From an uncultured Bacteroidota bacterium (GTDB lineage: Bacteria > Bacteroidota > Bacteroidia > 2-12-FULL-35-15): a stretch of 41,842 nucleotides of DNA. The position numbers were made by a program, and so were the translations under genes. The notes beneath the pieces were generated by a model. The model was not told where the DNA came from, ran no database searches, and worked only from the letters and a program-made list of their open reading frames with translations. Shown piece by piece: positions 9,841-36,635 of the stretch (positions within the stretch are counted from its first letter, which is position 1; the number at the start of each line of letters is the position of its first letter). The stretch is taken from NCBI GenBank assembly GCA_903911435.1, contig CAIWDF010000085.1:1-41842 (forward strand), read 5' to 3'.

Positions 9841-9845
9841 CTGAT

Positions 9846-9894
9846 TTACTGCCGAGCCTAGCCAATTTATGTATAAAGGCGGGCTCGGCAGTAA
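9846..9894. repeat. 13-bp perfect inverted repeat at the edge of array 1
   Basis: TTACTGCCGAGCC (9846-9858) is the exact reverse complement of GGCTCGGCAGTAA (9882-9894), with 23 bases between. It begins six bases after the stop codon at 9840. The right arm is the start of the first array unit, so the left arm is effectively an inverted unit. It could fold as an mRNA 3' hairpin, but it has no T tract. Confidence 0.8.
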
Positions 9895-10063
9895 TTAGCT
9901 TAGCCACGGCAGTAATTTGCCTAGCCTCGGCAGTAATTTGCCTAGCCATGGCAGTAATTTGCCTAGCCTCGGCAGTAATTTGCTTAGGCATGGCAGTAAT
10001 TTGCCTAGCCTCGGCAGTAATTTGCCTAGCCTCGGCAGTAATTTGCTTAGCCTCGGCAGTAAA
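9887..10063. repeat. tandem array 1: eight 21-bp units plus a partial unit
   Basis: Units begin with GGCAGTAATTTGCCTAGCC and two further variable bases. There are eight complete, uninterrupted copies (9887-10054) and a ninth partial copy ending near 10063. Differences are at unit positions 11, 14, 17/18, 20 and 21. Each unit contains TGCC and GGCA separated by seven bases. The array is GC-richer than its surroundings. ORFs run through it on both strands only because 21 is divisible by 3. No frame shows synonymous bias and two relevant frames contain stop codons, so I regard it as non-coding. Confidence 0.92.
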
Positions 10064-10444
10064 TCATCCAGACCTCGAACGAAAAAGTCGTCTTCTAGCT
10101 TCAAAATCAGGCGATTTAGCATTTTTTATCATTTCATTTTTTAGCCATTTTCGCTATCATTTTTCCGCTAAAGCGGATTCCTCACTCATTTTTTAATCAA
10201 ACCTCTTTATCTGCTTTCGAACCTGATGTGTGTGTTCGGAAGTTAATTTCAATCAATGCGCAAACTGTTGATAACTTAACGGATAAGCGATTTAAATGCT
10301 GCCATGGCTTTAGGTAATCGTGCGTTGCAAAACCCTCCAATTCGACAGCTTTTTCGTTTGGTTTGCTTTTCTTTTTTGATGAGAAATACGTTGGGCTAAC
10401 AATCATGTTAGTTCACCTGTTGAAAAAGTAACTTCAAGTTAATG

Positions 10445-10473
10445 TTGTTGTTATTTAAATTTTTATATATTTG
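10445..10473 (+). promoter_or_regulatory. candidate promoter for the giant T9SS gene
   Basis: TATATTTG (10466-10473) matches the Bacteroidota -7 consensus TAnnTTTG, with TTG at 10445-10447 eighteen bases upstream. Initiation would be near 10480, giving an unusually long leader of about 300 bases before the ATG at 10787. A promoter nearer the gene is not excluded in this AT-rich region. Confidence 0.4.
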
Positions 10474-10487
10474 TAACGATTTAATAT

Positions 10488-10521
10488 GAACGTTCGGCTT
10501 TGGTAATTGAACATACGGCTT
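10488..10521 (+). repeat. pair of 13-bp direct repeats spaced 21 bp
   Basis: GAACGTTCGGCTT (10488-10500) and GAACATACGGCTT (10509-10521) match at 11 of 13 bases and start exactly 21 bp apart, two helical turns. They lie just downstream of the candidate -7 box, where a pair of operator sites could act. The first contains the palindrome GAACGTTC. Confidence 0.5.
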
Positions 10522-10786
10522 ATTAAAATGAGTTTTAGGTGTGAATTTACTAGTCAATTGGGCGTTTTAATAGTGTTTGAAAAACAATTAGTTAAATAAA
10601 TTTTAGTCGATTTTTAAAAAATGTTCGACCTTAGATTGTAACTAAATTGAAAATTTGAAGTATAACGTAAACAAAAGTAAGGTGAAATAACAAATAAGTA
10701 AGTTGAAATGAAAATAGAAATGAAATAAACACAAAACCCCCATTAACCCCAAAAAATTAAATAGTTAATTACAAAAAAAACAAAAA

Positions 10787-13700
10787 ATGAAGAATCAAAA
10801 CAATTACACAACCACAATCAACAACACGTATCAAAAGGCAATAAGTAAATTGCTTATTGTTTTTGTTTTTATCATGGGTAGTATCCAGATGAAAGCAGCC
10901 ACCATCACATCCACCGCCACAGGAGGAACTTGGGCAACCGGCTCCACATGGGTAGGCGGTGTGGCACCAGCCACAGGCGATGCCGTAATCATTGCTACTA
11001 CAGGTACCAATAGCGTTTCCATAGGTGCTAATTTAACTCAGACAGCTGCAGGTTCGGTAACCATTAATAATGGTGCTATATTGAACATGACTACGACTGG
11101 GGTGACAGCAAGCTTAGGTGCATTAACTATCAATACTGGTGGTAAGTTCAACTGTTCGCGAGCATTAACCGTACAAGGAGCAACCAACATTTCGGGAACT
11201 GTTACTTTTGCTTCCACCAGCGGAACATCAAGAGCAATAGCTTTCACTGGAAACGTTACCCTCAATGCAGGTGCCGTTTGGACAGAACCAGCAACTGGAA
11301 ACGGTGCGAACAACACCTATGCTTTTGCAGGGAATTTCACAAACAATGCTACCACATTTAATGCATTAGGAACAGGTAATCACACCTTTTCAGGAACAGC
11401 CAAAACTATAAGTGGGGCCACAGCAACCACATTCAAAGCCTTAGTCATCAACGGAACAGTTACCAATAACCTTGCCGCTCATCTCACCGTAAGTACTGGA
11501 TTAACAGGAACTGGAACTTTAACACAAGGAACAAACTCCTATTTAAATCTTGTAGGAACTGCAACCATCACCACTTTAACAGCCACTGCTGCAGGCGATA
11601 CAGTTAATTATTCAGGTGTTGCACAAACTGCCAAAGTAACTACCTACATCAATCTTACCTTATCTGGCTCGTTAGCAAAAACATTTGCTACAACACCTAC
11701 TGTAAATGGAGTTCTTTCGATGGAAGGAACAGCAACGGTTACAGTAACTACAGGGGTTGTTACTTATGGAGGAAGTGCTACACTTAAATATAACACAGCC
11801 ACAGCCCGCACAGCTACTACCGAAGAATGGATAACACCTTTTTCCGCCACAGGCGGCATAGTGATTGCTAACACGGGAGCCATCACTATGCCCGGAGCAA
11901 GTGTATTGAATGCTAACGTACCGTTAACTATTAATGCTGGTGCTACGTTAACACCAGGAGCTAACTTACTTACCGTGGGAGGTAACTTCACTATCAACGG
12001 AGCATTTACATCAGGCTCAGGAGGAGTAACCATTGCAAGCAATGCAGCCACACAAGCCATCTCAGGATTTACTACCACAGGAACAGTATCCATGACTAAA
12101 ACAGGAGGTACAGCAACTATTTCGGGCAATATCAACGGAGCAGCTTTAACCATCAATGGTTCAGGAGGTACCGTAAATATGGGTACTGGCACACATACAT
12201 TTACAGGAAATGTAACCCTTACAGCAGGAACCATGAATGGAGGTTCGAGTACCATCAATGTAAATTCAACAAGCGCTACTGCTTGGACAGGGACAGGTTC
12301 GGTGTTTAGCGCAGGAACAAGTACGGTAGTATTTGGAGGAGTAGCACAAACGATTAATACCACCACCACGTTTAATAACTTAACCTTTGCAGCATCAGGA
12401 GCTAAAACAATTGCAACAGGAACCACAACAACCGTAAATGGAATACTCTCTCGCGAAGGAACGTCTACTGTAACTGTTTCTGGAACCTTGACTTATGGAG
12501 CTTCGGCAACCTTGCAATACAAAGGCACCGCCTTGCAAACAACAGGATCAGAGTTCCCAGCAACGTTCTCAGGAACAGGAGGAGTAATCATCAACAATGC
12601 AAGTGGAGTAACGCTGAACTCAGCACGTAGCTTGAATACAGCAAGTAAACTTACCTTAACTGTAGGTTTGTTTACCACCACTGCTACTAATTTGTTAACC
12701 GTTCTAAACACAGCAACCACTGCAATAGCAGGAGGTTCAACCACTACCTTCATCAACGGTCCAGTGAAATGGTCGCTTGCTAACACAGCAGGAACATATG
12801 TGTTTCCCGTAGGAAGCACAGGAACTAATTATTTCCCATTCACCTTAGCAACTACTGCAGCTAGTTCACCAATCATCACGGTACAAGCCTTCAACGCTGA
12901 TCCAGGAGCAGGAGCAACTTACACATCTCCAATAATTGGATTAAGTCACAATGAGTATTGGTTAGGAACACTTAATTCAGGAACGTTCACAGGTTCGGTT
13001 TCTCTCACACGTCAAGTTGGTTTAGGTAATTATTCTGTAATCGGTAAGAGTACTTTACTAACAGGAGCCTATGCTTCTTTAAACGGAACAGTGTCGGCAG
13101 CATCACTTTTAAATTCAGATGCTATTTCTACCTTAGGCTATTTCAATATGTCTGCTATTTCGCCTTGCCCTACTTATGCACTTACTGGTACAACTAGTTC
13201 AGGGATTTGTGCCGGAACTCCAGCAACCGTTTCGGTTACAGGCAATGCAGTGAATCTTCCAATAGGGTTGTATGTGGTAACTTATAACTTGGGGTCACCA
13301 AACACAGCAACAGGCCTTACCTCAAGTATGAATGTGGTAGCGGCAGGAAGTGGTTCATTCACTACCTCAAATTTAGCGACAACAGGTACAACGCTATTAA
13401 CTATTACACAAATTACTTCAGGGCCATGTAACACAGCAATTAGTGCAAGTAATACAGTAAGTATAGTTACTGCTGTAAGTTCTACACCTAGTCTTGCCTT
13501 ATCAATAAGTTCAGGAACCAATCCACAATGTGCTGGTAGTAGCATCACCTATACTGCTACACCATCAAGTTTAGGAGGAGGTTCCGTTTCAAATTATAAT
13601 TTTAAAGTAAATGGAAGTACTGTTCAAAGTGGAGCTACCGCAACCTATACTTCTTCAGCGATGACGAATGGTGATTTGGTTACATGTGATGTTACGGTAT

Positions 13701-16700
13701 CTGGAGGATCTTGTTTAACTTCCACTACCGCAACTTCAAATACCATCACCATGACGGTGAATCCTAATTTCACACCAGCTGTAAGCCTTGATTTAACTAC
13801 TGGTACAAATCCTGATTGTATTGGAAGCACAGTAGTATTTACTGGAACACCGAGCAATTATGGTGCAGGCTCAGTAAGTAACTATCAATTCTTAGTAAAT
13901 GGAGTTTCAAAACAAAGTGGTGCAACTACCACTTATACCACTAGCACCTTAGCGGATAACGACTTAGTGAGAGTTAATATTACTATCACAGGTGGTACTT
14001 GCGTAACAGCTACGACTGCATTCGATACTACAACTATGAACATTAGTCCATTACCAGCAGGAAGATTAACTGCAAATGGACCTTTTTGTTTAACAGGAGC
14101 AGGTCTTCTTAATTATGATGATACCTTAGCTGTTGAACCTTTTGACATCGTTTATAGCGATGGAACTTCAAACAGAACTTCCCTTGGAAATTCGAGCGGT
14201 GTTGATTTTGCCACATTTACTACTCCTGTTACATCAACCACTATTTACACCATTGTATCAGTAACCGATGCACTTGGTTGTGTTGGAACAACAGGTTTTG
14301 GAAAGAATAAAGACACCATCACAGTGAATGCAAACAATACAGTTACACGCACATCAGCTGCAGGTACAGTAGCACAAACCGTTTGTTTGAATTCAGCAAT
14401 CACCAATATAACTTATTCTACAACTGGAGCGACAGGCGCAACATTTGCTGGATTGCCTACAGGGGTAAATGGTTCATGGTTATCAAACGTCATCACCATC
14501 AGTGGTTCGCCATCCGTTGCCGGAGCTGCAACATATACAGTTACTTTAACAGGAGGATGTGGAACAATAACAACGACTGGTAGCATCACTGTAAATGTAT
14601 TGCCAACTGTTAGCTCTAACGTTACACCTTCTGCAACAGTATGTAGTGGAACATCAGTAACCTTGACCGGAACAGGAGCAAGCTCTTACGCTTGGACTGG
14701 AGGAATAACTAATGCAACAGCATTCTCAGCAACTGCAACAACAACTTATACTGTAACAGGTACAGCAGCAAATGGATGTCAAAACACATCAACTCGTTTA
14801 ATCACTGTCAATGCATTACCGACAGTGAGCTCAACAGTTTCACCATCCGCAACAGTATGTAATGGAACATCGGTAACATTAAGTGGAACCGGAGCAACAA
14901 GCTATGCATGGACAGGCAGTGTAACCAATGCAACACCATTTACAGCAACGTCAACAACAACTTATACTGTAACAGGAACTGATGCAAATGGTTGTCAAAA
15001 CACCGCAACTCGTTTGATCACTGTAAATGCATTACCAACGGTAAGCTCAACAGTTTCACCATCAGCAACAGTATGTATTGGAACAGCGGTAACATTAAGT
15101 GGAACCGGAGCAACAAGCTATGCATGGACAGGCAGTGTAACCAATGCGACACCATTTACAGCAACATCAACAACAACTTATACAGTAACAGGAACAGATG
15201 CAAATGGTTGTCAAAACACATCAACCCGTTTAATTACTGTGAATGCATTACCAACAGTAAGTTCAACGGTAAGTCCATCCACAACAGTTTGTAGTGGAAC
15301 ATCTGTAACATTAAGTGGAACCGGAGCAAGCTCATATGCTTGGACAGGAGGCATCACCAATGCAACACCATTTACAGCAACGTCAACAACAACTTATACT
15401 GTAACAGGAACAGACGCAAATGGCTGTCAAAATACAGCAACTACTACCATTTCAGTAACAACTCCTCCAAGCAATTCAGTTGCAGGTTCAAGTGCTTCCA
15501 TTTGTTCTTCAGGTGTTGTACTTGCTGCAAATACACCAACAGTTGGAATCGGCACTTGGAATGTAGTTTCTGGTCCGAGTATGAACGTAACTCAATTCAG
15601 TAATATTCATAATCCTGCTTCAACTTTCATTCCTGATGGTGGTACTGGTAATTATACATTATCTTGGACAATTACCAATTCACCTTGTACAGCTTCTTCG
15701 TCTTCTATCACTTTGTCAGTTGTGAGCTCAGGCACTTGGTTTGGTGTGAACAATGATTGGTTTGATGCAAATAATTGGTGTGGTGGAATTCCAACTTCCA
15801 CGACTAATGTGGTGATTTCTTCTTCAGTTTCAAACATGCCGCTTATTTCAACTACGGGTGCAGTCTGTAATAGCATCACTATTAACGGTGCTGCTGCTTT
15901 AAACATGAGTAGTACTTCAGATTTAACAGTGTTTGGGAATTGGACAAATAACGGAACATTTACATCAGGTGGTGGAAGCGTTTCTTTCACAGGAAGCTCA
16001 GCACAAACAATTATTGGAACAACAACCTTTGATAATATGTTCGTGAATAACACTGCAGGAGTAACCTTAAACAATAATATCGTTATTAATAGTATTTTGG
16101 AATTAGATAATGGTAATATTAGCACAGGCGCTAATTATGTTCAGATAGAAGCTAATGCATATCCAATCGCTATTGATGGTTTTATTGATGGTAATCTAAA
16201 ACAATATATTCCATCAGGATTCGGTATTTCTGCATATTATCCTATTGGTTCAAATAGTAATGCCTCAGCTTTAGACATTTTCTTTAATAACGTTTCTGTA
16301 GCAGGATATGTAACAGCCTCTTCAACAAGTGGAGATCATGCACAAGCTGCTAGTTCAGGATTTAATTTAAGTCAAACGGTTAATCGTACTTGGACATTAA
16401 CTAATGGAGGAATAAGTTATGATGAGTTTCAGGTTGGCATGTCATATCAATCTTCTGATTTTGATGCAGGGTATTCTGACTCATACGGTGACCTTAGAGT
16501 ATACACTGCTGGAAGCTGGATAGATTTACCTAATTCAGTTCAAACACCTAATTATATTTCAGCCTCTTCAGTCACTGATTTTGGTGATTACCAAATTGGT
16601 GATGTGAATCCTGTACCAAGTGCTTATTCGATTTCACCATCTGTTGGAGCACAAAACCAAACATTGAACATAACAATAAGTGGTGCCGGATTTATTTCTG

Positions 16701-18979: not shown

Positions 18980-19001
18980 GCTTAATTAGTTACACTTTTC
19001 T

Positions 19002-19038
19002 AAAAGAGGTCGTTCCCATAGGAGCGACCTCTTTTTTT
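19002..19038 (+). terminator. intrinsic terminator after the giant T9SS gene
   Basis: AGAGGTCG (19005-19012) pairs with CGACCTCT (19025-19032), extended inward with a G-U pair toward a short loop. A T run at 19032-19038 follows. It lies about 25 bp after the stop at 18979. Confidence 0.9.
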
Positions 19039-19217
19039 ATTAGTTAATATAAAATAGGGGAGGAGGAAGGTGTAAGTTAGAATTATGGATGCCCTAGTTA
19101 AAGTCAAAGTCGATAATTTCATCAATTTCCATATCAAGAAGAGGCTACCATAAGGCCAAAAACGATTAAAATGTGATAAAAATTAACTTTTGGTGACTTT
19201 TAAGTGATTTTTTGAGC

Positions 19218-19648
19218 TTAAAATTCATCCCACGTGTACTTGGAATCATTACAAGTGTACTTGGAGTCATTGCACGTGTACTTGGAATCATTACAAGTGT
19301 ACTTGGAGTCGTTCCACGTGTACTTGGAGTCGTTACAAGTGTACTTGGAGTCATTGCACGTGTACTTGGAATCATCCCACGTGTACTTAGAGTCATTGCA
19401 CGAGTACTTGGAATCATTGCAAGTGTACTTGGAGTCGTTGCACGAGTACTTGGAATCATTGCAAGTGTACTTGGATCGTTGCAAGTGTACTTGGAGTCAT
19501 TGCACGTGTACTTGGAATCATTGCACGTGTAATTGGAGTCATTGCAAGTGTACTTGGAATTATTGCACGTGTACTTGGAGTCATTGCACGAGTACTTGGA
19601 ATCATTGCACGTGTACTTGGAACCAATCCAATTGTTCGTAAAAGCCAT
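19218..19648 (-). pseudogene. possible heptapeptide-repeat ORF, broken by a 1-bp deletion
   Basis: On the minus strand an ATG at 19648 opens MAFTNNWIG and then repeats of SKYTCND through array 2. Unit 12 lacks one base (between 19475 and 19476), which shifts the frame. If that base is restored, the frame runs to SKYTWDEF and a TAA at 19218-19220, 143 residues in all. In this frame I count 23 of 31 unit substitutions as synonymous; the main changes are ACG/ACT, GAC/GAT, AAT/AAC and TGC/TGT. Each unit has one cysteine, lost to Trp in two units. No family is recognised and no clear promoter is seen. It may equally be a non-coding array with a chance frame. Confidence 0.3.
19231..19621. repeat. 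tandem array 2: eighteen 21-bp units plus a partial unit
   Basis: Units begin CACGTGTACTTGGAATCAT or close variants and run without spacers. Unit 12 is 20 bp; unit 19 is partial. Many units alternate between CAC and CAA at the start and between GAA and GAG in the middle, giving a partial 42-bp period. CAAGTGTACTTG contains 5-bp inverted arms. Of 31 substitutions against the consensus, 26 are at positions 3, 9, 12, 15, 18 or 21. The array lies in a convergent gene gap, between the plus-strand terminator at 19002-19038 and the minus-strand terminator at 19716-19760. Confidence 0.93.
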
Positions 19649-19715
19649 CTACAATTAAGTAAAGTAATATAAATGTGAGAATGTCAAAAATTTGAAAGAG
19701 TGTAATGAAAATCAG

Positions 19716-19760
19716 AAACGGAAAAGCCGCTGAGAATATACTCAGCGGCTCTATCCGTTT
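19716..19760 (-). terminator. intrinsic terminator after the flavin oxidoreductase gene
   Basis: A perfect 10-bp stem (AGCCGCTGAG, 19725-19734, with its complement at 19741-19750) has a 6-base loop. It is embedded in an outer 7-bp stem (19716-19722 with 19754-19760). Read on the minus strand, the inner stem is followed by TTT before the outer arm. It lies about 66 bp beyond the stop of the minus-strand gene ending at 19826. Confidence 0.8.
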
Positions 19761-19825
19761 GATGAACTAGGTTTGTGTTGCGGTAACTAGAAAACTAAAT
19801 TACTCATCAGTCATCTAAATTCATT

Positions 19826-22299: not shown

Positions 22300-22342
22300 A
22301 ATAAAAATTGAAAATTATAAAGTTCGAATTTTGAATTGACGA

Positions 22343-22350
22343 CAAATATA
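22343..22350 (-). promoter_or_regulatory. Bacteroidota-type -7 box upstream of fabI
   Basis: Read on the minus strand this is TATATTTG, an exact match to TAnnTTTG. It is 43 bases before the fabI ATG and just after the recN stop. No clear -33 TTTG is visible. Confidence 0.45.
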
Positions 22351-22359
22351 CTAATTAGT

Positions 22360-24015: not shown

Positions 24016-24059
24016 TGATTAAAGTATAAGGAATGGAATAATTAATGCGAATTTGTTTT

Positions 24060-24962: not shown

Positions 24963-24971
24963 AAGGGTAAT

Positions 24972-26168: not shown

Positions 26169-26256
26169 TCTTCTTTTTTCAAGATAAAGTTATGATTTTG
26201 AAGTTGACAAAACAGAATTTGAATCAACCATTTCGCCAACTTCAAAATGTTAACAC

Positions 26257-26586: not shown

Positions 26587-26603
26587 TTTTGTTATTTATT
26601 TAA

Positions 26604-27485
26604 TTATGATGGTTTATTGTATTTCTCTAAATTTTTCAACGCATTTGAATAAACTGATTCGGCTTCTTTGATGAATTTGCTATTGGGATAGGTATCCACA
26701 AATTTGATGTACGCATCACAGGCCGATTTGAATCGTTCTGCTTTTTTTGATTCAATACTATTCAAAGCAAGTAAATAATAAGACTTGATAATTTTGTAAC
26801 GAATCTCTTCAGCATGTTTATCATCGGGGTAATCTTTTAAATGATTGTTAAGAGCTGAGATTGCTGCTTTATAATCTCCGGTTTCAAAATAAAGGATAGA
26901 ATTTTCGTATGATTTGCGTTCAAGCTTTCCTCTCAATTTGTCTAAAAGCGCATTACATTCTTCTATTCTAGTGCTTTTTGGAAATTGTAAAGTGAAATGT
27001 TGAAATTCTTTTATTGCAAGTTTTGTGTCAATCTGGTCAAGACTATATTCTGGTGAATTAAGGTAGAAACAATAGGCATTCATATACGCACATTCTTCTG
27101 TGTGAATGCTATTTGGGTAAGTTTTTGCAAAATTTCTAAATTGATAACCAGCAACAATGTAATCTTCCATATTGTAGTTGCAATAAGCGTAATAATAATG
27201 AACTTCTTCGCCCTTTTCGGTTCCTCGATATACACTCATAAGTTCCTCAAACAAAGTTAGTGCTTTCGAATAGTCCTCTTTGTCAAAGTACTTCTTTGCA
27301 GCAGCATATTTGGCATCCATATCCGAACTCTTTACCAACTTATTGAATTTGCCAATAGTGATACTTCGATCCTTATGTTTCCCTTTACCGTTAGTAGATT
27401 CATACACTTTTTGTTCACTGTGACACGAAGCCAAAATGATAATCCCAAACGAGACGAATATGTTAAGTAAATACTTTTTTTGCAT
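26604..27485 (-). CDS. bamD: outer membrane protein assembly factor BamD
   Basis: This is a 293-residue lipoprotein of the BAM complex, which folds beta-barrels into the outer membrane. I chose the ATG at 27485 over one at 27539. It gives a lipoprotein signal (MQKKYLLNIFVSFGIIILASC) with lipobox LASC and acyl-acceptor Cys21, and a -7 box lies between the two candidate starts. The mature part contains TPR-like helical pairs, including AAKKYFDKEDYSKALTLFEEL, YYYAYCNYNMEDYIVAGYQF and LYFETGDYKAAISALNNHLK. Length fits the Bacteroidota BamD. It is the first gene of the bamD-rpoZ-coaBC-DUF4835-recN block. Confidence 0.92.
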   Translation of the reverse strand: MQKKYLLNIFVSFGIIILASCHSEQKVYESTNGKGKHKDRSITIGKFNKLVKSSDMDAKYAAAKKYFDKEDYSKALTLFEELMSVYRGTEKGEEVHYYYAYCNYNMEDYIVAGYQFRNFAKTYPNSIHTEECAYMNAYCFYLNSPEYSLDQIDTKLAIKEFQHFTLQFPKSTRIEECNALLDKLRGKLERKSYENSILYFETGDYKAAISALNNHLKDYPDDKHAEEIRYKIIKSYYLLALNSIESKKAERFKSACDAYIKFVDTYPNSKFIKEAESVYSNALKNLEKYNKPS

Positions 27486-27495
27486 AAAATGGACG

Positions 27496-27503
27496 CAAAG
27501 ATA
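27496..27503 (-). promoter_or_regulatory. Bacteroidota-type -7 box upstream of bamD
   Basis: On the minus strand this reads TATCTTTG, matching TAnnTTTG. It is about 10 bases from the chosen bamD ATG, so the mRNA would have a very short leader or none. It lies inside the longer alternative ORF start, which argues against that start. Confidence 0.4.
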
Positions 27504-27776
27504 GTTTTTTTGATGGAATAACGGTATACAATCTTTCAATCAGAACACTAAATTCTGTTAAAAGAAATATTTGATTGTAATTAGAATGAAATCAATCCAC
27601 AAACATACCTGAGTCACAAGAGAATCGCCTCTAAGCAACATTTCAGAATTAAATTTATTTGTTAATGGAATACAATATTAGAACCAAAACGACTTTTAAA
27701 GATTCTTTTTCTGAAGATACCTAGTATATTTCTTCTCAAAACTCACAAAACATATTGGTCCCATTGATAAAAACGA

Positions 27777-27806
27777 TTGTTCACTAAAATATATAAAGTA
27801 CTTTTA
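27777..27806 (+). promoter_or_regulatory. candidate promoter for the DUF1569 gene
   Basis: TTG (27777-27779), a 19-bp spacer and TACTTTTA (27799-27806) match the Bacteroidota promoter pattern with one mismatch in the -7 box. The ATG at 27828 follows after 21 bases. Confidence 0.5.
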
Positions 27807-27827
27807 CCCAAAAATAAAACTTAGAAA

Positions 27828-28280
27828 ATGAAAAATATTTTTAAACAAGAAGTAACTGAAGAAATAATTGAAAGAATCAACAAATTGGAAAACACTACAC
27901 AACCTGTTTGGGGTAAAATGACCGTTGGGCAAATGCTTGCACATTGTAATGTTACCTACGAAATGATCTATGAAAATAAACATTCAAAACCCAGCTCTTT
28001 CATAAAATTTATTCTCAAAACATTTGTAAAGAAAACGGTTGTAGACGAATCGCCATACAAGCTCAACAGCAGAACCGCACCTCAATTTTTAATGACAGAC
28101 CCAAAGGACTTTTTAAATGAAAAACAACGACTCATTAGTTTCATAAAAAAAACGCAAGAGAAAGGGGAAAACTTCTTTGATGGAAAAGAGTCACATTCTT
28201 TTGGTATATTAAAGAAAACGGAGTGGAATAATATGTTTTACAAACACCTTGATCATCATTTAAGTCAATTTGGAGTTTAG
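27828..28280 (+). CDS. DUF1569 / DinB-like protein
   Basis: This 150-residue cytoplasmic protein has the pattern of DUF1569, a branch of the DinB/YfiT four-helix-bundle superfamily. Visible features are PVWGKMTVGQMLAHCNVTYEMI with a candidate metal-binding His44, a basic middle, then KTEWNNMFYKHLDHHLSQFGV, whose histidines would complete the metal site. DinB-like proteins are often thiol-dependent transferases, but the substrate here is unknown. It is likely monocistronic with its own promoter; the next gene, 98 bp downstream, has a separate -7 box. Confidence 0.8.
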   Translation: MKNIFKQEVTEEIIERINKLENTTQPVWGKMTVGQMLAHCNVTYEMIYENKHSKPSSFIKFILKTFVKKTVVDESPYKLNSRTAPQFLMTDPKDFLNEKQRLISFIKKTQEKGENFFDGKESHSFGILKKTEWNNMFYKHLDHHLSQFGV

Positions 28281-28340
28281 ATTAAAACTAAAAATCGAAT
28301 TGGTCGAGAAAATTTTAGAAAGAATGATAAAAATATTATT

Positions 28341-28348
28341 TACATTTG
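28341..28348 (+). promoter_or_regulatory. Bacteroidota-type -7 box upstream of the third T9SS gene
   Basis: TACATTTG matches TAnnTTTG exactly and lies 30 bases before the ATG at 28379. No strong -33 element is seen. Confidence 0.45.
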
Positions 28349-28378
28349 TTCAATATTAACCCCTTAAAATAAAATAAA

Positions 28379-30220
28379 ATGAAAAAAATAGCTATGTTTT
28401 TTATTATCTGTTTTTCAGCAATTAATTTGTTGAATGCTCAAACATCTGGTGGTCCTGATACCTATGGTTACACATGGCGCGACAGCAATGATGGAGTGGG
28501 AGCTCCTGTTTACAATTGGATAGATATTGTACCTCTTTCTGGAGCCCAAAATGTGCGTTTTCTTGACGATGACAATACCGTTGGTTCTTTTCCTATAGGG
28601 TTTCCTTTCCATTTTTATTGGTATGATGTTACTCAGTTTTGGGTAGGTTCTAATGGATACATTGGATTTACAAATGGACAAATTTCTTCTCCTTTCCCGG
28701 CTATTCCAAGCACTTCAAACCCACAAAATTTCATTGCAGCTTTTGCCTCCGATTTAGTTTTTGGTCTGCCTGGAGATACCGCTCAATGCTGGCGCTGGAC
28801 AAATTCTACCAATGATACATTAATTGTATCATATTTGCACGTTCCTTTTTATCAAGCAACCTCCCCTAATTTTATGGGTAGCAACACCTTTCAAATAATA
28901 TTGTCTGCAGTAGATAGTTCAATCACTTTTCAATACAAGGAACAGTTGGGTTCAACCATCACCACTTCCGGTAATTTTTCTTCTGTCGGGATCGAGAATA
29001 ACTCGGGAAACATAGGATTACAGCAATCTTTTAACACGTATCCTCAAACAAATTATGCTGTGAAGTTTAAGTATCCTTCAAATACTACTTATGCAGTATC
29101 GGATGCCGCTACAATGTATAATAGCAACCCTGAAACGGGTGGAGCATTTTTATCAAACCTTGGTAGTGCATTTACCATGTCAACCAATATTAAAAATACA
29201 GGGAATCAAAATTTAGCAAGCTTCAATGTTTTCTCTAGAGTTTTAAATGCGGGAGGAGCAGTACTAGCTCAGAACACAGTAGCTAGTAACGCTTTGACTC
29301 CAGGACAAAGTCAATCGATTACAATGCCCAACACTTTTAGCCCAACTTCAGCTGGTACGTATACATTTGTAACCAATACTCAACTTGCAGGTGATATAAC
29401 GCCAAGCAATAATCAAAAAGTTCAGGAATTACAAGTTGTAGACACTACAGCTACATCTATGCTACTTTCCTACGACAACGGTACTGAAGCTGGTCTCGGT
29501 GGACTTAGTTGGACAGGTGGTCAAGGTGGTGGGGGAATTTATTTCGTTCCTCCATTCCATCCAGCCAAGATCACACAAATGTTATCCTATGTAGCAGCCG
29601 ATCCTAACGGTGTTGGTTTTTCAATGGAAATATTTGCTGATAATGGAATAGCAGGAAGTCCTGGAACGATGTTGGATTCGGAAGCGGTGGCTCCAGGGAC
29701 AGCTAATACAGGAGCATGGAACATAATTACATTACCTACACCAATTATTGTTAACGCTGGCGGAGTATTTGTTTCTTGGAGTATGAATGGTGATGGTGTT
29801 GCGCTTGGACAAGATAATGTGGCACCTTTTTCAAACCAGACTTTTGAAGTAATCAATAACACATGGGCTATTTATCGTTCTCGCGAAACAGCAGATTTGA
29901 TGATTAACCTTACTATTGAAAAATATTCAAATGTTGGTATATCAGAGCTAAAAGGAGGAAGCACTATTGGTGAGTTTTATCCGAACCCATCTTCTTCTGT
30001 TTCTAGTCTTAATTTCGAATTTACAACACCTCCAAAATCTTTATCGTTCGATATATTTGATGTTCAAGGCAAGTTGATAGAACATAAAATGATGAACAAT
30101 CAAGTTACTAACAATGGAAAATTGACTGTAAATACCGAATCGATGAATGCTGGAATTTACACTTGCAAAATAAATGTTGATGGTAACACAATGGTGAGGA
30201 AATTGGTTATTGCAAAATAA
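28379..30220 (+). CDS. T9SS type A sorting domain-containing protein with CARDB-like domain
   Basis: This is a 613-residue secreted protein with a signal peptide (residues 1-20, ending LLNAQ). Residues about 25-230 form a beta-rich domain beginning YTWRDSNDGVGAPVYNWIDI. Its PIGFPFHFYW, FWVGSNGYIGF and FAAD-like motifs resemble surface proteins and peptidase-associated domains of the phylum. Residues about 235-355 look like a CARDB/Ig-like domain (IKNTGNQNLASFNV). Residues about 360-520 form another beta domain. The C-terminal about 75 residues are a T9SS type A sorting domain (FYPNPSSS.., FDIFDVQGKLIE.., AGIYTCKINVDG.., VRKLVIAK). Its cargo function is unknown. A strong terminator follows. 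Confidence 0.83.
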   Translation: MKKIAMFFIICFSAINLLNAQTSGGPDTYGYTWRDSNDGVGAPVYNWIDIVPLSGAQNVRFLDDDNTVGSFPIGFPFHFYWYDVTQFWVGSNGYIGFTNGQISSPFPAIPSTSNPQNFIAAFASDLVFGLPGDTAQCWRWTNSTNDTLIVSYLHVPFYQATSPNFMGSNTFQIILSAVDSSITFQYKEQLGSTITTSGNFSSVGIENNSGNIGLQQSFNTYPQTNYAVKFKYPSNTTYAVSDAATMYNSNPETGGAFLSNLGSAFTMSTNIKNTGNQNLASFNVFSRVLNAGGAVLAQNTVASNALTPGQSQSITMPNTFSPTSAGTYTFVTNTQLAGDITPSNNQKVQELQVVDTTATSMLLSYDNGTEAGLGGLSWTGGQGGGGIYFVPPFHPAKITQMLSYVAADPNGVGFSMEIFADNGIAGSPGTMLDSEAVAPGTANTGAWNIITLPTPIIVNAGGVFVSWSMNGDGVALGQDNVAPFSNQTFEVINNTWAIYRSRETADLMINLTIEKYSNVGISELKGGSTIGEFYPNPSSSVSSLNFEFTTPPKSLSFDIFDVQGKLIEHKMMNNQVTNNGKLTVNTESMNAGIYTCKINVDGNTMVRKLVIAK

Positions 30221-30239
30221 TGCAATGAGTCACTGAAAT

Positions 30240-30276
30240 AAAATCCCGTTCGATTATACTATTGAACGGGATTTTT
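30240..30276 (+). terminator. intrinsic terminator after the third T9SS gene
   Basis: A perfect 12-bp stem, AAAATCCCGTTC (30240-30251) with its complement (30264-30275), has a 12-base loop and ends in a T run. It lies 19 bp after the stop codon. Confidence 0.92.
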
Positions 30277-30297
30277 TAATTTTAATATAGCATACAA

Positions 30298-30951
30298 ATG
30301 TTAACTGTTTATTGTATCCCAGGTATGGGAGTAGATCATCGATTATTTCGAAACATTAACCTAACTAATTGTGTTTTGAAACCAATCAAGTGGGAAACCC
30401 CATCCAAAAACGAATTGCTTCCCGATTATGCCATGCGACTTGCAAAACAAATTGATACTTCCGAACCATTTGCATTGCTTGGCGTTTCGTTTGGAGGTAT
30501 GTGTGTTACTGAAATTGCAAAACGATTGAATCCTGTGAAAGCATTTGTAATATCAAGCTGTAAAGAGCACAAGGAGTTACCTATAAAACTAACCATATGG
30601 AAATACCTTCCTCTTTATAAGACGCTTAATGATGCTACTTACAAACGCTCGGCTATGTTTGTAAAAAAACAATTTGGAGTCTATACCGATGAACAAGCTC
30701 GTAAGTTCAGGGAGATGCTCGATACTTCACCCTCCAATTATTTCAAAGGTGCCGTTCACTGCATAATGACTTGGAAAAACAAAACAATACCCGATAATCT
30801 TGTTCATATACATGGCACGGCTGATAGAGTGATTGATGCAAGAAAAATAAATGCCGATTACCTAGTTCAAGAAGGTTCGCACTTTATGGTGATAAATAAA
30901 GCTGAAGAAATAAATAGGATAATCAACAGAGAGCTGAAAGACCTAGCTTAA
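30298..30951 (+). CDS. alpha/beta hydrolase
   Basis: This 217-residue cytoplasmic protein has the alpha/beta-hydrolase fold. CIPGMGVDHRLF forms the oxyanion-hole strand. Nucleophile Ser64 lies in the elbow GVSFGG, a likely acid Asp176 in HGTADRVI and His195 in EGSHFMV. The small lid suggests a carboxylesterase or thioesterase; the substrate is unknown. It begins 22 bp after the terminator of the preceding gene. Its stop codon is a single base from the stop of the convergent DUF4159 gene. Confidence 0.85.
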   Translation: MLTVYCIPGMGVDHRLFRNINLTNCVLKPIKWETPSKNELLPDYAMRLAKQIDTSEPFALLGVSFGGMCVTEIAKRLNPVKAFVISSCKEHKELPIKLTIWKYLPLYKTLNDATYKRSAMFVKKQFGVYTDEQARKFREMLDTSPSNYFKGAVHCIMTWKNKTIPDNLVHIHGTADRVIDARKINADYLVQEGSHFMVINKAEEINRIINRELKDLA

Positions 30952-30952
30952 T

Positions 30953-31642
30953 CTATTTTTTGGCTGTATTCTCACCTCCCATTAATACATATTGAATGAT
31001 GTTGGCTCCCATTCGTAATGCCTTTTGATGTGTTTCGGGTGAGTCTTTATGCACTTCGAAGCTTTCCCAACCATCTCCTAAGTCGCATTCGTAATCATAG
31101 AAACAAACTAATCGTCCCTGATAAATCAATCCGAAACCTTGTGCGTTGGTTCCATCATGTTCATGAATTTTTGGCAATCCATTTGCGAAATCGTATTTCT
31201 GATGATAGATTGGATGGGAGAAAGGAAGCTCAATAAATTCTATTTCGGGGAACACTTTTTTCATTTGCGGGCGAATGAATTTATCGATTCCATAATTGTC
31301 AGAAATATGCAAAAATCCTCCTCCAATTAAGTAATTGCGAAGATTATCTGTTTCCTGAGAATTGAAAACAACATTTCCATGCCCTGTCATATGTAAGAAA
31401 GGATAATTGAAAATGTCGGGACTTCCGACTTCTACAATGGCTTGTTCCGTTTTGATGTTTGTTTTTAAGTTTTCGTTGCAAAATTTAATCAGATTAGGCA
31501 ATGAGGTTTCAAGATTTGCATACCAATCGCCACCACCGCTGTATTTAAGCAATGCAATTTGATAAGTAGGAGCAGGACTGAATGCAAAGCACGCTATCAA
31601 AAGCATCGACACGATTAAACCTTTTTTTAATTTCACGTTCAT
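30953..31642 (-). CDS. DUF4159 domain-containing protein
   Basis: This 229-residue exported protein has a signal peptide (MNVKLKKGLIVSMLLIACFAFSPA). I chose the ATG at 31642 because it starts the signal and avoids overlapping the upstream gene; an ATG at 31675 would overlap by 20 bp. The DUF4159 pattern is visible: ALLKYSGGGDWYANLETSLPNLIKF, the PFLHMTGHGN motif, NLRNYLIGGGFLHISDNYG, and a C-terminal DGWESFEVHKDSPETHQKALRMGANII. The domain resembles glutamine-amidotransferase-like folds, but its function is unknown. It is last in a minus-strand run of six genes. Confidence 0.85.
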   Translation of the reverse strand: MNVKLKKGLIVSMLLIACFAFSPAPTYQIALLKYSGGGDWYANLETSLPNLIKFCNENLKTNIKTEQAIVEVGSPDIFNYPFLHMTGHGNVVFNSQETDNLRNYLIGGGFLHISDNYGIDKFIRPQMKKVFPEIEFIELPFSHPIYHQKYDFANGLPKIHEHDGTNAQGFGLIYQGRLVCFYDYECDLGDGWESFEVHKDSPETHQKALRMGANIIQYVLMGGENTAKK

Positions 31643-31655
31643 TCCGTTGGTTATT

Positions 31656-31895
31656 CTATTGTTTTTCCTTCGCATGTTTAAAAGCTAAAAACATTTCATT
31701 AAAACGAATCATTACTTTTTCAAGAAATTCATCATCCACCATTTTCTTTATTCCTTCTATTCCATTCACCTCGTTATGTGCTATCTTGAATATTTGTTCC
31801 ATATTTCCAGCTTCAAAACGAATTTGGTATTTCTCGTTCATAGAGAAAATACTGATACTTAATTTTGGATGAGGAATAGAGCCAATTACACGCAT
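31656..31895 (-). CDS. small conserved-looking hypothetical protein
   Basis: This 79-residue protein has no signal peptide or membrane segment. It starts MRVIGSIPHPKLSISIFSMN and continues KYQIRFEAGNMEQIFKI. That resembles small uncharacterised proteins of Bacteroidota that I recall, but I cannot name a family. It lies 10 bp after the 138-residue gene and 13 bp before DUF4159 on the same strand, which supports it being a real gene in an operon. Its function is unknown. Confidence 0.65.
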   Translation of the reverse strand: MRVIGSIPHPKLSISIFSMNEKYQIRFEAGNMEQIFKIAHNEVNGIEGIKKMVDDEFLEKVMIRFNEMFLAFKHAKEKQ

Positions 31896-31905
31896 TCGAT
31901 ATTTA

Positions 31906-32322
31906 TTATACTTTTTTTATTGGACCACTAAATATACTTGTTCCTTCATCTCCTTCAATTCTTAACTTTGATTGTATAGCTTGCGCTAATTTCAAATAAT
32001 GATTCAATTTATTCTTGGCTAAAAAAAGTGCAGCATCATCATCACCATTAATATAATTTGCCATTGCGGCCCAAATGTACTCCTTTTGTTCCATGAGAAG
32101 CTTAAAAGCTTTTTTATCGTCCCAAACTGCATTTACAAAACTTGCAAGCGTAAGATGTTTATTCACCAACAAGTATTCGAAGGATTTCGAATGTCGGCTT
32201 ACGGCATCGTTCAATTGAACCAATTCTTCAAGTTTATTATTCTGCAACCAGTGTTTTGCTGACATTTCGCCTTCTACCCATTGTGTTGCTTTTTCAATCT
32301 CTTCTTGTTTATAAACGAGCAT
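31906..32322 (-). CDS. hypothetical protein
   Basis: This is a 138-residue, probably all-helical soluble protein that I do not recognise. It has no signal peptide. Visible features are the aromatic and charged segments WVEGEMSAKHWLQNN and NAVWDDKKAFKLLMEQKEYIWAAM, and a DDDAALFLAKNKL helix. It is flanked closely on the same strand by the TfoX-like gene (44 bp upstream) and the 79-residue gene (10 bp downstream), so it is probably cotranscribed. Confidence 0.6.
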   Translation of the reverse strand: MLVYKQEEIEKATQWVEGEMSAKHWLQNNKLEELVQLNDAVSRHSKSFEYLLVNKHLTLASFVNAVWDDKKAFKLLMEQKEYIWAAMANYINGDDDAALFLAKNKLNHYLKLAQAIQSKLRIEGDEGTSIFSGPIKKV

Positions 32323-32366
32323 GCTTTGTAATCAATTTCAAATCAAAAGTTGTGAATCAAAACTAG

Positions 32367-32759
32367 TTATTTTATTTTCATTTTAACGGTCTTCTTGCTT
32401 TTTCTTGGCTTTGGTATTCTACCAATTCGTTTGTCGCCTTTCAATATCAAATCACAAACGCAATTGATGCTGGTTTCAAAATCATCTTCATCTTTATGTA
32501 TCATCTGCCAACCGCTAACACTATCACCAAATAATGTAATTGGTTTTAAACTTGGGAAGTCTGAACGTAAGCTGTCCATGTATTCTTTATTGGTAGCTAT
32601 CCAAGCTCCGCTATCCACATCATCTTTGTCGCGCAAAATTAAAACTATTTTATTCTCGACATAAACTGCGTAGGCACCAAACATTGGTTTTACAATAGGA
32701 TTTGCAGAAAAAAGATTTTCTAAAATAAAATCAAAAGGAACATTTTTTTTAACCGCCAT
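32367..32759 (-). CDS. TfoX N-terminal-like protein
   Basis: This 130-residue protein shows a TfoX/Sxy N-terminal-like pattern: a helical start, then VKPMFGAYAVYVENKIVLILRDK, where the family has a KxMFGG.G.Y motif. A strand-rich middle and a basic tail (RKSKKTVKMKIK) follow. TfoX regulates competence in gammaproteobacteria. In Bacteroidota such stand-alone domains have no known role, so I do not infer competence. It starts 7 bp after the stop of the TonB-dependent receptor, which suggests cotranscription. Confidence 0.65.
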   Translation of the reverse strand: MAVKKNVPFDFILENLFSANPIVKPMFGAYAVYVENKIVLILRDKDDVDSGAWIATNKEYMDSLRSDFPSLKPITLFGDSVSGWQMIHKDEDDFETSINCVCDLILKGDKRIGRIPKPRKSKKTVKMKIK

Positions 32760-32766
32760 TGTTATC

Positions 32767-35277
32767 TTAAAACTTGATAATGGTTCTGAAATTCAATTGA
32801 CGATTGGTAAGATAATTTGGCACTGCGTATTGTCGGCTTGTTACATCTTCCACCCAAATGTACGAAACGGTATTGTTGGTGCCTAATAGATTGAATACTT
32901 CTAAACTTATCCATACCGATTTTAAGAATCGACCTATATTTTTCTCTTTCACTTTTCGGTTTTCGCGAAGTACTTGGTAAGAGAAGCCGATGTCGACTCT
33001 TCGGTAAGGAGGCATACGAAGTACCTGCTGATAATAATCGGAATGTGGAGGACCAAATGGAACACCTGTACCAAATAATAGATTCAAGTGCATTTTCAAA
33101 TCGGGTAGGTGAGGCATTTTATCTTGAAAGAACAATCCGAAACTAACCCTTTGGTCGGTAGGGCGAGGAAGGTAGCCTGGTTCGAAACGAACACTATCCA
33201 CCTTTTTGGTATTGTAGGTATATCCAGGCACAATCTTTTGTCCATCGCTATTATAATATTCGTAGTAATAATCATCCTTGATATCTTGTCGCGTTTCCAT
33301 GATTGATAATGATGCCCAAGATTCGAGACCTTTTACAAATTCACCATTCACTTTCATATCCAAACCCGAAGCGTATCCTCGTGCATTGTTTTTTGCTGAA
33401 TAGGTGATTCGAACATTGTCTATTTGATAAGGAATTAAATTGTCGAGGTACTTATAATAAGCCTCGGCAACAAACTTAAATGGGCGTTTCCAAGCGGTGA
33501 AATTATAATCGCTCGAAAGCACAAAATGAATAGATGTTTGTGCTTTCAGATTAAAGTTGATATTGCCTGAGCCATCTCGCAATTCGCGATAGAAGGGAGG
33601 TTGATAGTAGTATCCAGAAGAGAATTTAAATACAAAGTCTCGCTTCCAATTGGGTTTAAAACCAATTGTTCCTCTAGGTCCCCATAGAGCTTGTCCATTC
33701 AAATCCCAATAATTTCCCCTTACGCCTAATGCCAATGATAGAGTAGAAGTGTCTCTTAAATCCTTGTTCCACACTTCTTGTCCATACCAAGCAAATCTAT
33801 TTGAGGAAATACTTATTTTCTGCTTTATTACATTTTGCAAAACAATTTGTTGTGGATCGGTGATTGGGAGCGAATAGCCTGCACTGTCAACGAATTTCCA
33901 TTCGCTTAGTTTATCATCAATAATTTCTTTGTTGTATTTCAGTCCCCAAAGCAATTGGTTTTTGCCACTTGTGTAAGTTCCTTTATGTTCGCCACTGATA
34001 ACATAAGCCGTTAAATTAGTTCGAGCATGATTCAGAAAAGTTCCCACTCCTCGGTTGGCAACCACATCTCCAAAGCTTGGTTTTCCAAAATCAGTCTCTA
34101 GTTGGTCGATGTAATATTGCCCTTGTATATCAAAGGCTTCGCTTTCTTTGCTTCTGAATCCAGAACCGATAAACTTTAAATTCAACTTATCATTTTTGTC
34201 GTGATACATGGTAGATACTGCACCCATCATGGTATTGAATTTATCCACCTCTTGACCATCGAAATATATTTTCAATCTTAAAGCTTCGCTAACGGTACCA
34301 AAATCGGTTTCTCGGTTTTGTGGTACTATCTCATATTTATTAGAGGCATAATTTCCCAAAACATCCAATTGCCATTCTGTCGTTAAATCATATGTAAGGT
34401 AAGCTTGAACATCAGCAAAGAATGGTTTATAATCGCCCTTTGTATCGGTTTTGCTCAATAGGTATTTGGTGCTTTTGTAACGCGCACCTATCAGCCAAGT
34501 GAAACGATAATCTTTTGAACATCCTTCGAGGTGTAAGTTGCTACCCAATAAACTACCCGATACGGTGCCTGCAAACTTGCGCGGTCTGCGGTATTGAACA
34601 TCGAGTACTGACGACATTTTATCTCCATATTTAGCTTCGAAGCCTCCTGCCGAAAACACAACGGACGATACCAAATCGGGATTCACAAAACTCAATCCTT
34701 CTTGCTGCCCGCTTCGGGTAAGGAAGGGACGATACACCTCTATCCCGTTGACATAGACAAGGTTCTCATCAAAATTTCCACCACGAACGGAGTAGGACGA
34801 ACTTAATTCGTTTCGGCTCGAAACTCCCGGTAGGGTAAAGAGGATGGCATTAAAATCTTCGCTTGCTGTGGGTATATGTGTCAATAGAATAGGGTCGATG
34901 CGGGTTCCTTCTTTGAACCGGGCATTGTCGGTTACTTCTACTTCTCTAAAAGTATTGATGGTAATGGTTTTGTCAATCTTCAATTTCTGATTGGCGGCAA
35001 GTTTTACGGTTTGTTGTTGTTTTCCGTAGGAGATGTTGTAAAAAGCAATGATGATTTCTTTGTCGGCAGGAATGGAATACGTGTATTCTCCATTTTTATC
35101 GGTGTATACTGGTGCTTGTGTGCCTCCGAGTATCGACACCGAAACGCCTTCCACTGGTTCGTTATCGGTATTGGTTAAGCGGCCATAAACGGTGGCTTTG
35201 TTTTGTGCCATTGCTGCTTGCAGCGCAACAAGGAGGAAGCATGAAAATAAAAAAGCTTTAATCTTTACTCCTCTCAC
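32767..35277 (-). CDS. TonB-dependent receptor with carboxypeptidase-regulatory-like domain
   Basis: This 836-residue outer-membrane receptor imports a ligand using TonB energy. It has a signal peptide (to about residue 24, ..ALQAAMA-Q) and a CarboxypepD_reg-like domain (about residues 29-95, ATVYGRLTNTDNEPVEGVSV). A plug domain (about 125-230) contains LPGVSSRNELSSSYSVRGGN, and a beta-barrel ends in a C-terminal Phe (FRTIIKF). The GTG start at 35277 overlaps the upstream stop as GTGA, so translation is probably coupled. The partner is a small carboxypeptidase-regulatory-like protein and no SusD gene is present. A role in polysaccharide uptake is therefore not indicated, and the ligand is unknown. 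Confidence 0.92.
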   Translation of the reverse strand: MRGVKIKAFLFSCFLLVALQAAMAQNKATVYGRLTNTDNEPVEGVSVSILGGTQAPVYTDKNGEYTYSIPADKEIIIAFYNISYGKQQQTVKLAANQKLKIDKTITINTFREVEVTDNARFKEGTRIDPILLTHIPTASEDFNAILFTLPGVSSRNELSSSYSVRGGNFDENLVYVNGIEVYRPFLTRSGQQEGLSFVNPDLVSSVVFSAGGFEAKYGDKMSSVLDVQYRRPRKFAGTVSGSLLGSNLHLEGCSKDYRFTWLIGARYKSTKYLLSKTDTKGDYKPFFADVQAYLTYDLTTEWQLDVLGNYASNKYEIVPQNRETDFGTVSEALRLKIYFDGQEVDKFNTMMGAVSTMYHDKNDKLNLKFIGSGFRSKESEAFDIQGQYYIDQLETDFGKPSFGDVVANRGVGTFLNHARTNLTAYVISGEHKGTYTSGKNQLLWGLKYNKEIIDDKLSEWKFVDSAGYSLPITDPQQIVLQNVIKQKISISSNRFAWYGQEVWNKDLRDTSTLSLALGVRGNYWDLNGQALWGPRGTIGFKPNWKRDFVFKFSSGYYYQPPFYRELRDGSGNINFNLKAQTSIHFVLSSDYNFTAWKRPFKFVAEAYYKYLDNLIPYQIDNVRITYSAKNNARGYASGLDMKVNGEFVKGLESWASLSIMETRQDIKDDYYYEYYNSDGQKIVPGYTYNTKKVDSVRFEPGYLPRPTDQRVSFGLFFQDKMPHLPDLKMHLNLLFGTGVPFGPPHSDYYQQVLRMPPYRRVDIGFSYQVLRENRKVKEKNIGRFLKSVWISLEVFNLLGTNNTVSYIWVEDVTSRQYAVPNYLTNRQLNFRTIIKF

Positions 35278-35948
35278 TTCTTATCTTTCTTCTTTTTAAA
35301 GTCACCATTTTTCCATGCTTGTATAAACTTTGCCCAAGCTATTGGGTTCAACAAATTGTTGGGAGGCATTTGCCCAGCATAGTATAGTTTGCTTTGATAT
35401 TGTTGCATGGTGAATTTATAGTTCAAGCTTGCATCCACAGCCATGCCTGCCATGCGGGCTTTCATATCTTCGCGGTCCATGTTTCTATTGGCATGGGTCA
35501 TGTCGTCATCGGGCAAGTTGAGGGCAAGGAAAGCGGCCTTAAACTGTTCTTTGGTAGGCCAAGGATACACCACTGTTTCGCGAAGCGAGACGGTATCGGT
35601 GCGCAATACTTGAATGAGCGAATATTTATTGGTCGACAAAGTATCGGGTATGTAAAAATTAGCTGGTGAAAAACCAATGGCCGAAAACACAATGGTGTCG
35701 CCCAATTGAGCCACAAAACTAAAATATCCGAAATAATCGCTTATGGTACCTCTGTTGCTTTTGTTTACGATGATACTGGTGTATGGCACCGGACGTAGAC
35801 TATCGCCTTCCACCACTATTCCGCTAAACTGAATCAAATGCTGGTCTTTGTTTTGCCATTTCACCCGATCTTGCGCCCAAGCACTATTTAAAGACACACT
35901 TATCAAACCCACTAATGCCAATACTCTCAACCAATTTCTCATTTCCAT
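35274..35948 (-). CDS. carboxypeptidase-regulatory-like domain protein, exported
   Basis: This 224-residue exported protein has a signal peptide (to about residue 25, ..NSAWA-Q). A CarboxypepD_reg-like beta-sandwich (about residues 42-94) reads FSGIVVEGDSLRPVPYTSIIV followed by an SDYFGYFSFVAQLGDTI segment. The same module occurs at the N-terminus of TonB-dependent receptors. The C-terminal half is charged and ends in a lysine-rich tail. It is the first gene of the minus-strand run and is coupled to the TonB-dependent receptor by a 4-bp overlap, so the two proteins probably work together at the outer membrane. Its exact function is unknown. Confidence 0.85.
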   Translation of the reverse strand: MEMRNWLRVLALVGLISVSLNSAWAQDRVKWQNKDQHLIQFSGIVVEGDSLRPVPYTSIIVNKSNRGTISDYFGYFSFVAQLGDTIVFSAIGFSPANFYIPDTLSTNKYSLIQVLRTDTVSLRETVVYPWPTKEQFKAAFLALNLPDDDMTHANRNMDREDMKARMAGMAVDASLNYKFTMQQYQSKLYYAGQMPPNNLLNPIAWAKFIQAWKNGDFKKKKDKK

Positions 35949-35962
35949 TATTTATTGAGCCC

Positions 35963-35970
35963 CAAAAGTA
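35963..35970 (-). promoter_or_regulatory. Bacteroidota-type -7 box upstream of the receptor operon
   Basis: On the minus strand this reads TACTTTTG, matching TAnnTTTG, 15 bases before the ATG at 35948. A TTG lies 24 bases farther upstream, slightly farther than usual. Array 3 begins about 120 bp away. Confidence 0.45.
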
Positions 35971-36092
35971 CATAATAATTAGCCACAGGGGATGCAATCT
36001 AAGGATTAACGGAAAATTTATTTAATTATTGCGTGGAGAATGATTTTTCGGAAAAGGCTTTTGAAATGAACAACCTGAAATTAAAACAATAG

Positions 36093-36635
36093 CAAATCCC
36101 TAATGTGTGATTTGCCCTTTTACGTTACTTTTCACCTAATTGTATTATGGGATTGGCCATAATACGTTACTTTTTGGCAAATCCATAATATATGGTTGGC
36201 AACATTTAGTTACTTTTCGCTAAGCCCTAATGTGTGGTTAGCGGTTTTACTTTACTTTTTGCCAATCCCTAATGTGTGGATGGCAACATTACGTTACTTT
36301 TTTGCTAATCTCTAATACAAAAATGTTCGTATTAGGTCACTTGGGGCAAATCCCTAATTAGCTGTTGGCAGTTTTATGTTACTTTTCGCCAATAGCTAAT
36401 TAGCGGTTGGCAGTTTTACGTTACTTTTCGTCAATCCCTAATTAGCTGTTGGCAGTTTTATGTTACTTTTCGCCAATCCCTAATTAGCAGTTGGCAGTTT
36501 TACGTTACTTTTCGTCAATCCCTAATTAGCGGTTGGCAGTTTTATGTTACTTTTCGCCAATCCCTAATATACTTATGGCAATTTTATGTTATTTGGGGCA
36601 AATCCCTAATTAGCTGTTGGCAGTTTTATGTTTTT
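36093..36635. repeat. tandem array 3: about twelve 42-bp units plus a partial unit
   Basis: Units begin near CAATCCCTAATTAGCGG and contain GGCAGTTTTATGTTACTTTTCG. Five central units (about 36355-36560) are nearly identical; those to the left are increasingly divergent, as is one to the right. Central units alternate between two forms (TATG with CGC, TACG with CGT), giving an 84-bp period. Across each unit junction a 24-bp near-palindrome runs from GCCAA to TTGGC, centred on CTAATTAG. In the best unit it has 10 Watson-Crick pairs and one G-U of 12. The array fills the divergent gap between the receptor operon and the acyl-CoA carboxylase gene. No coding frame is evident. Confidence 0.92.

Follow-up and report, generated by a model that had tools for sequence, protein, structure and literature searches.

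A gene family of Bacteroidia linked to tandem arrays that keep a 21-bp unit length but not its sequence

Results

Three tandem arrays and an array-linked gene

The window analysed here is a 41,842-nucleotide stretch of DNA from an uncultured Bacteroidota bacterium (contig CAIWDF010000085.1, assembly GCA_903911435.1). It contains three tandem arrays in gaps between genes, the first of which directly follows a small gene; the features that concern us are listed below.

9145-9840, + strand: array-linked gene just upstream of A1, 231 aa from the ATG at 9145; the longer open reading frame starts at 8968
9841-9883, + strand: spacer after the stop codon of the array-linked gene, with an inverted copy of the unit at 9846-9869 that faces the first A1 units
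9884-10062: array 1 (A1), gene-linked, period 21, 8.5 copies, 89% matches, unit consensus CTCGGCAGTAATTTGCCTAGC
19231-19622: array 2 (A2), orphan, in a convergent gap, period 21, 18.7 copies, unit consensus CACGTGTACTTGGAATCATTG
36163-36632: array 3 (A3), orphan, in a divergent gap, period 42, 11.1 copies, with a 126-bp higher-order repeat

An earlier note on this DNA had described three arrays with periods of 21, 21 and 42 bp, and both repeat calling and self-match lags confirm their places and periods. A1 matches itself best at lags of 21, 42, 84, 126 and 147 (identity 0.89-0.94), A2 at 21 and 42 (0.82), and A3 at 42, 84 and 126 (0.73, 0.71 and 0.62, respectively). As the identity of A3 at lag 21 is only 0.35, its primitive unit is 42 bp. 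A2 includes one unit of 20 bp, and degenerate repeat sequence is seen at A3 from about 36092. For the A1 consensus, eight matches were observed against 0.01 expected from shuffled sequence. The arrays had been called unrelated; this is true among A1, A2 and A3, but for all three related arrays occur at other places in the genome, namely at C275 (96%) and C90 (78%) for A1, at C277 for A2 and at C27 for A3. The two short direct repeats at 10488 and 10509, which had been counted towards the same metric, do lie 21 bp apart, but they are just two imperfect copies (10488-10501 and 10509-10522 agree at 11 of 14 positions) and are meaningless alone.

The inverted copy at 9846-9869 is supported by a local alignment z of 6.8, and is also kept beside the gene-less copy of A1 at C275 (L112:17236-17259). 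Together with the first A1 units it could form a terminator or attenuator hairpin. Inverted copies were considered as a general feature of array borders and rejected, being clear only in the A1 family and weak in A3. The gene adjoining A2 has an ortholog in G012 that is likewise followed, about 190 bp downstream, by a 21-bp array with a different unit, and no A3-like array was found upstream of the orthologous carboxylase gene at the other loci examined. Por_Secre_tail and TonB-receptor domains, together with named relatives, point to a Bacteroidota lineage. The window also holds a coding tandem repeat (14585-15442, four copies of 216 bp) within a 2730-aa open reading frame that has PKD-like domains and a Por secretion tail.

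Array periods across the genome and its relatives

The genome comprises 4.19 Mb in 312 contigs, of which 512 kb (about 12%) were sampled together with samples from relatives. Non-coding arrays were counted at a TRF score of at least 80, with heptamer microsatellites taken out as a separate class. The period distribution, which the earlier note had itself proposed as the test of its idea, was strongly positive: of the 31 non-coding arrays in the 512 kb, 24 have periods divisible by 21 (21, 42, 63, 84 or 126; binomial p 4e-26 against 1/21). We refer to these as 21n arrays. From the sample we estimate that they cover roughly 1% of the genome, and they seem to break its assembly, because several contigs end inside them.

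When relatives are pooled in, the smallest period is 21 bp in 76 arrays, 42 bp in 19 and 63 bp in two, with at most three arrays at any other value and a further 16 in which no lag reaches 60% self-identity. This histogram holds no units of 31-32 bp (three helical turns) or 52-53 bp (five turns). Unit sequences are mostly unrelated from one array to the next. The 21/42 peak recurs in same-genus relatives, but only in some of them, and is absent from 985 kb of more distant loci; the highest density seen was in G299, with about ten 21n arrays in 40 kb (L305-L306). The heptamer class (AACAACC/TTAGTTG and CCTATTC types, periods 7 and 14, e.g. L116:257-330 and L122:12716-12890) occurs both in this genome and in its relatives.

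The arrays are linked to a multi-copy gene family

The gene upstream of A1 was found in only 7 of 35 genomes of the genus, with several copies in each, and in nearly all copies a 21n array with a unit of its own begins 12-75 bp past the stop codon. When the count is limited to distinct genes with enough sequence after them, a 21n array lies no more than 100 bp downstream in 24 of 25 cases for the close subfamily; for control genes, taken from the same or similar genomes, the figure is 8 of 661 (4/291, 1/178 and 3/192; Fisher p 2e-36). This linkage shows that gene and array form one unit. For distant members an array lies within 600 bp in 19 of 36 cases, against 76 of 661 control genes (11-12%, p 8e-9), and in some lineages it is found upstream rather than downstream of the gene.

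Presence of the gene also tracks presence of the arrays. By a profile built from 19 members, the family is multi-copy in G000, G004, G005, G008, G012, G014, G015, G027 and G028 and in the genomes of L055 and L040. Non-coding 21n arrays are present in 9 of these 11 genomes, the two others having been sampled for only about 15 kb, and in 1 of the 27 genomes that have one copy or none (Fisher p 3e-6); the corresponding densities are 48.5 and 1.1 arrays per Mb. The array-bearing genomes had been recorded before the gene family was recognised. Across 395 Bacteroidia genomes the same profile finds homologs in other families, often beside 21n arrays, and a broader profile places the gene family in 52 of the 395. 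The earlier note, while right about the array itself, had missed the strongest clue, which is that A1 and the gene upstream of it together make up a cassette with many copies across Bacteroidia.

Two loci are recorded here as side observations. A family homolog in G005 (L032:6997-7620) lies directly downstream of a carboxyltransferase gene, with no nearby array. In G041, which belongs to another family, an 84-bp array built of 21-bp units (L220:222-406) was seen with no match to the gene family at E 1e-4, which counts against the proposed link; it is possible that this genome is an exception, or that a diverged family gene was missed.

The product of 9145-9840 has a basic N-terminus, a helical middle and a weakly Fn3-like C-terminus. 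Proteins of the family are about 200-230 aa long, and certain H, W, S and D residues of their C-terminal half are invariant, while the basic N-terminus is a feature of the close subfamily. The close subfamily gave no match in Pfam (above cut-off), NCBIfam, PADLOC, PHROG or PDB sequences. In distant members only, fn3 (PF00041) appears below threshold (E about 0.002, 18 bits against a cut-off of 25), and no fn3 domain above the curated cut-off was seen in the family. Annotation labels such proteins as fibronectin type III domain proteins whose function is unknown. A predicted structure was uninformative (pLDDT 39, from an alignment with only one relative). Judged by these searches, this is a previously undescribed, multi-copy family of proteins of about 230 aa.

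Array sequences turn over faster than the linked gene

Duplicated cassettes allow the gene and its array to be compared directly. In the G004 pair C70/C71 the genes are 95.6% identical and the sequence after the array is nearly identical; the arrays, of 12 units each, align without a gap, yet outside a conserved core, AAATG(A/T)CA, they have diverged strongly. For C85 and C282 of the window's own genome, the proteins are 91% identical over the family domain and both flanks are common, but the units differ. Over the whole set of cassettes, protein identity is no guide to array similarity (Mantel p 0.46), and protein and array sequence agree in a single pair, which is 96% identical. This lack of tracking argues against ordinary sequence-specific recognition. 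The arrays turn over faster than the linked gene, and what is kept is the unit length and not the sequence. The gene-less A1 copy at C275 runs from a point 4 codons short of the gene's stop to about 70 bp beyond the array, which shows one way in which orphan arrays arise.

The arrays conserve length and dyad symmetry

Only one register shift was found in 782 units. Indels are about fivefold fewer in 21n arrays than in other non-coding arrays. Of the 21n arrays 72 of 89 are indel-free, and the figure for equally diverged non-coding arrays with other periods is 9 of 25 (p 3e-5); the test is biased in that the repeat finder favours indel-free arrays, although the control arrays had passed the same finder. 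Module length is, statistically, constrained. The claim that unrelated sequences share one metric, for which slippage alone is an inadequate cause, is supported; the metric is conserved in relatives and the arrays are poor in indels.

Column-permutation tests reveal dyad symmetry both in 75 arrays of 21 bp (combined p 4e-15) and, strongly, in primary 42-bp arrays (p<0.05 in 9 of 11, combined 4e-11), while for A1 alone (p 0.44) or A3 alone (p 0.41-0.52) it is not significant. Because a palindromic 42-bp unit necessarily has dyads every 21 bp, 21 bp is also the dyad spacing in 42-bp arrays; the two halves of the unit are unrelated, yet the dyads are 21 bp apart. Folding energy is lower than in column-permuted arrays (mean z -1.18 for gene-linked arrays and -1.22 for the genome's own), against -0.08 for a control of tandemised intergenic 21-mers. 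No local compensatory changes were seen in the arrays, which leaves the hairpin reading unproven, and the symmetry may reflect either a hairpin or a dimer site.

The units are contiguous and head-to-tail without unique spacers, which rules out a CRISPR array, and the 21-bp units show no internal 7-bp periodicity (lag-7 identity about background). The earlier note had taken 21 bp as two turns of B-DNA, and had suggested cooperative protein binding or curvature. Helical phasing in general is not supported, as three-turn and five-turn units are missing. No 10.5-bp harmonic in A+T content was found in 75 arrays, and intrinsic curvature, or curvature-phased DNA, is discarded on this ground. Recognition by a protein stays plausible.

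Discussion

A possible gene-satellite system

The reading that we prefer, with a probability of roughly 0.45, is a gene-satellite system whose self-complementary 21-bp modules would be docking sites for a factor. The likeliest such factor is the linked Fn3-like protein, which as a dimer or oligomer would place one protomer set on each module, either of the DNA or of its transcript, and would recognise the length and the dyad or hairpin shape more than the letters. Reading of this kind would select against indels and let the sequence drift. As cassettes duplicated, copies lacking the gene would remain as orphans, A2 and A3 among them. That the linked protein is the module reader and binds the arrays directly we infer from its basic N-terminus, the linkage and the co-occurrence; the link and the fixed length could also reflect a common history without direct contact. 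We give even odds to the view that a family in Bacteroidia keeps private 21-bp arrays in which length and self-complementarity, not sequence, are selected, with the orphans as further docking sites. As to output, our leading guess is scaffolding of chromosomal DNA at intergenic sites, and other candidates would be nucleoid anchoring, regulation of neighbours and selfish satellite maintenance.

Could the arrays instead be neutral satellites? An old 21-bp array beside the gene might have had its sequence replaced by point mutation and unequal exchange while inheriting its period, the gene travelling with it as a duplicating cassette. The relatives of the arrays within the genome, the homogenised units and the boundaries of the gene-less C275 copy all fit such a history, which does explain orphans and homogenisation. 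It does not explain the fixed length or the dyads: over class-wide time, drift to 20, 22 or 23 bp would be expected, yet 76 and 19 arrays sit at 21 and 42 with few others, and both the indel depletion and the self-complementarity are left without a cause. We regard a purely neutral origin as unlikely.

Two further models each account for part of the data. An array transcribed as the 3' part of the gene transcript or from its own promoter could act as protein-bound hairpins or small RNAs, much as in type III toxin-antitoxin systems; the short distance from the stop codon and the lowered folding energy agree with this, as do terminator-like hairpins after the array in several cassettes. In other cassettes, however, such a hairpin precedes the array, distant members have the array upstream of the gene, the sense strand is no more stable than the antisense, compensatory changes are lacking, and neither an Rfam match in the window nor a PADLOC match was found, so that an RNA system appears rather improbable. 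In a mobile element of REP/RAYT type the repeats would be the substrate and the gene product the mobilising factor. A multi-copy gene with its own repeats, dispersed gene-less copies and the dyads would suit it, and a Y1_Tnp (IS200/RAYT-like) gene has an orphan array (L347:902-1125) some 370 bp upstream, probably by chance. We consider this model quite unlikely, as the family has no transposase signature, the genome has only two Y1_Tnp matches with none seen in cassettes, phage and plasmid collections gave no match, and the arrays do not co-vary with the protein as REPs are reported to do with RAYTs (PMC2817692). Translation into heptapeptide repeats (21 bp being 7 codons) would account for the indel depletion and for open frames being slightly more frequent than expected (203 against 183, z 2.3). 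But variability has no 3-periodicity (combined p 0.98), the open frame varies relative to the gene between cassettes, the peptides share neither a start nor a composition, and comparable arrays with 6-, 8- or 9-codon units do not occur; the phase test and the frames rule out a coding reading, and we give it next to no weight.

No matching description of gene-linked 21-bp arrays was found in the open-licence papers searched, although one may exist in a subscription paper, and we found no described bacterial satellite that has a dedicated partner protein and a unit fixed in length but free in sequence. The arrays raise a testable question, namely how a cell holds a module at 21 bp without holding its sequence, and they are a first lead to the function of a widespread protein family.

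Comparison with known systems

Plasmid iterons are direct repeats that stand in tandem next to a gene, each spanning about two helical turns, and the 21n arrays resemble them in this. They differ in being chromosomal, in numbering dozens to hundreds per genome, and in having unrelated units even beside near-identical proteins; family members contain no Rep initiator domain, and the plasmid collection gave no match. Type III toxin-antitoxin systems (ToxIN) likewise place one gene beside a tandem array with its own unit. In the close subfamily, however, the array is downstream and its unit is 21 bp, shorter than ToxI-type units, and the 19 members gave no Pfam or PADLOC match to a ToxN/CptN/TenpN-type endoribonuclease toxin. 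Heptamer intergenic repeats are abundant non-coding tandem repeats that are reported to be common in prokaryotes (PMC6344855). The present genomes have 7- and 14-bp arrays too, but the 21-bp arrays differ from these in lacking a 7-bp sub-period and in being gene-linked.

The closest known system in logic is RAYT/REP, in which a gene is flanked by its own palindromic repeats, gene-less copies are dispersed, presence is correlated across genomes, and RAYTs and REPs are reported to coevolve (PMC2817692). The resemblance, and it is a resemblance only, lies in a gene beside its own dyad-symmetric repeats (as in REP/BIME), in gene-less copies and in an array abundance that tracks the gene. The defining features nonetheless fail: the linked protein matches no Y1_Tnp (IS200/IS605-like) model, and the genome's own Y1_Tnp matches (C262 and C157) are not at family loci. 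Repeat and protein sequences do not coevolve here, and the 21n arrays, unlike REPs, are head-to-tail, with a unit fixed at 21 or 42 bp and a sequence that is free to vary.
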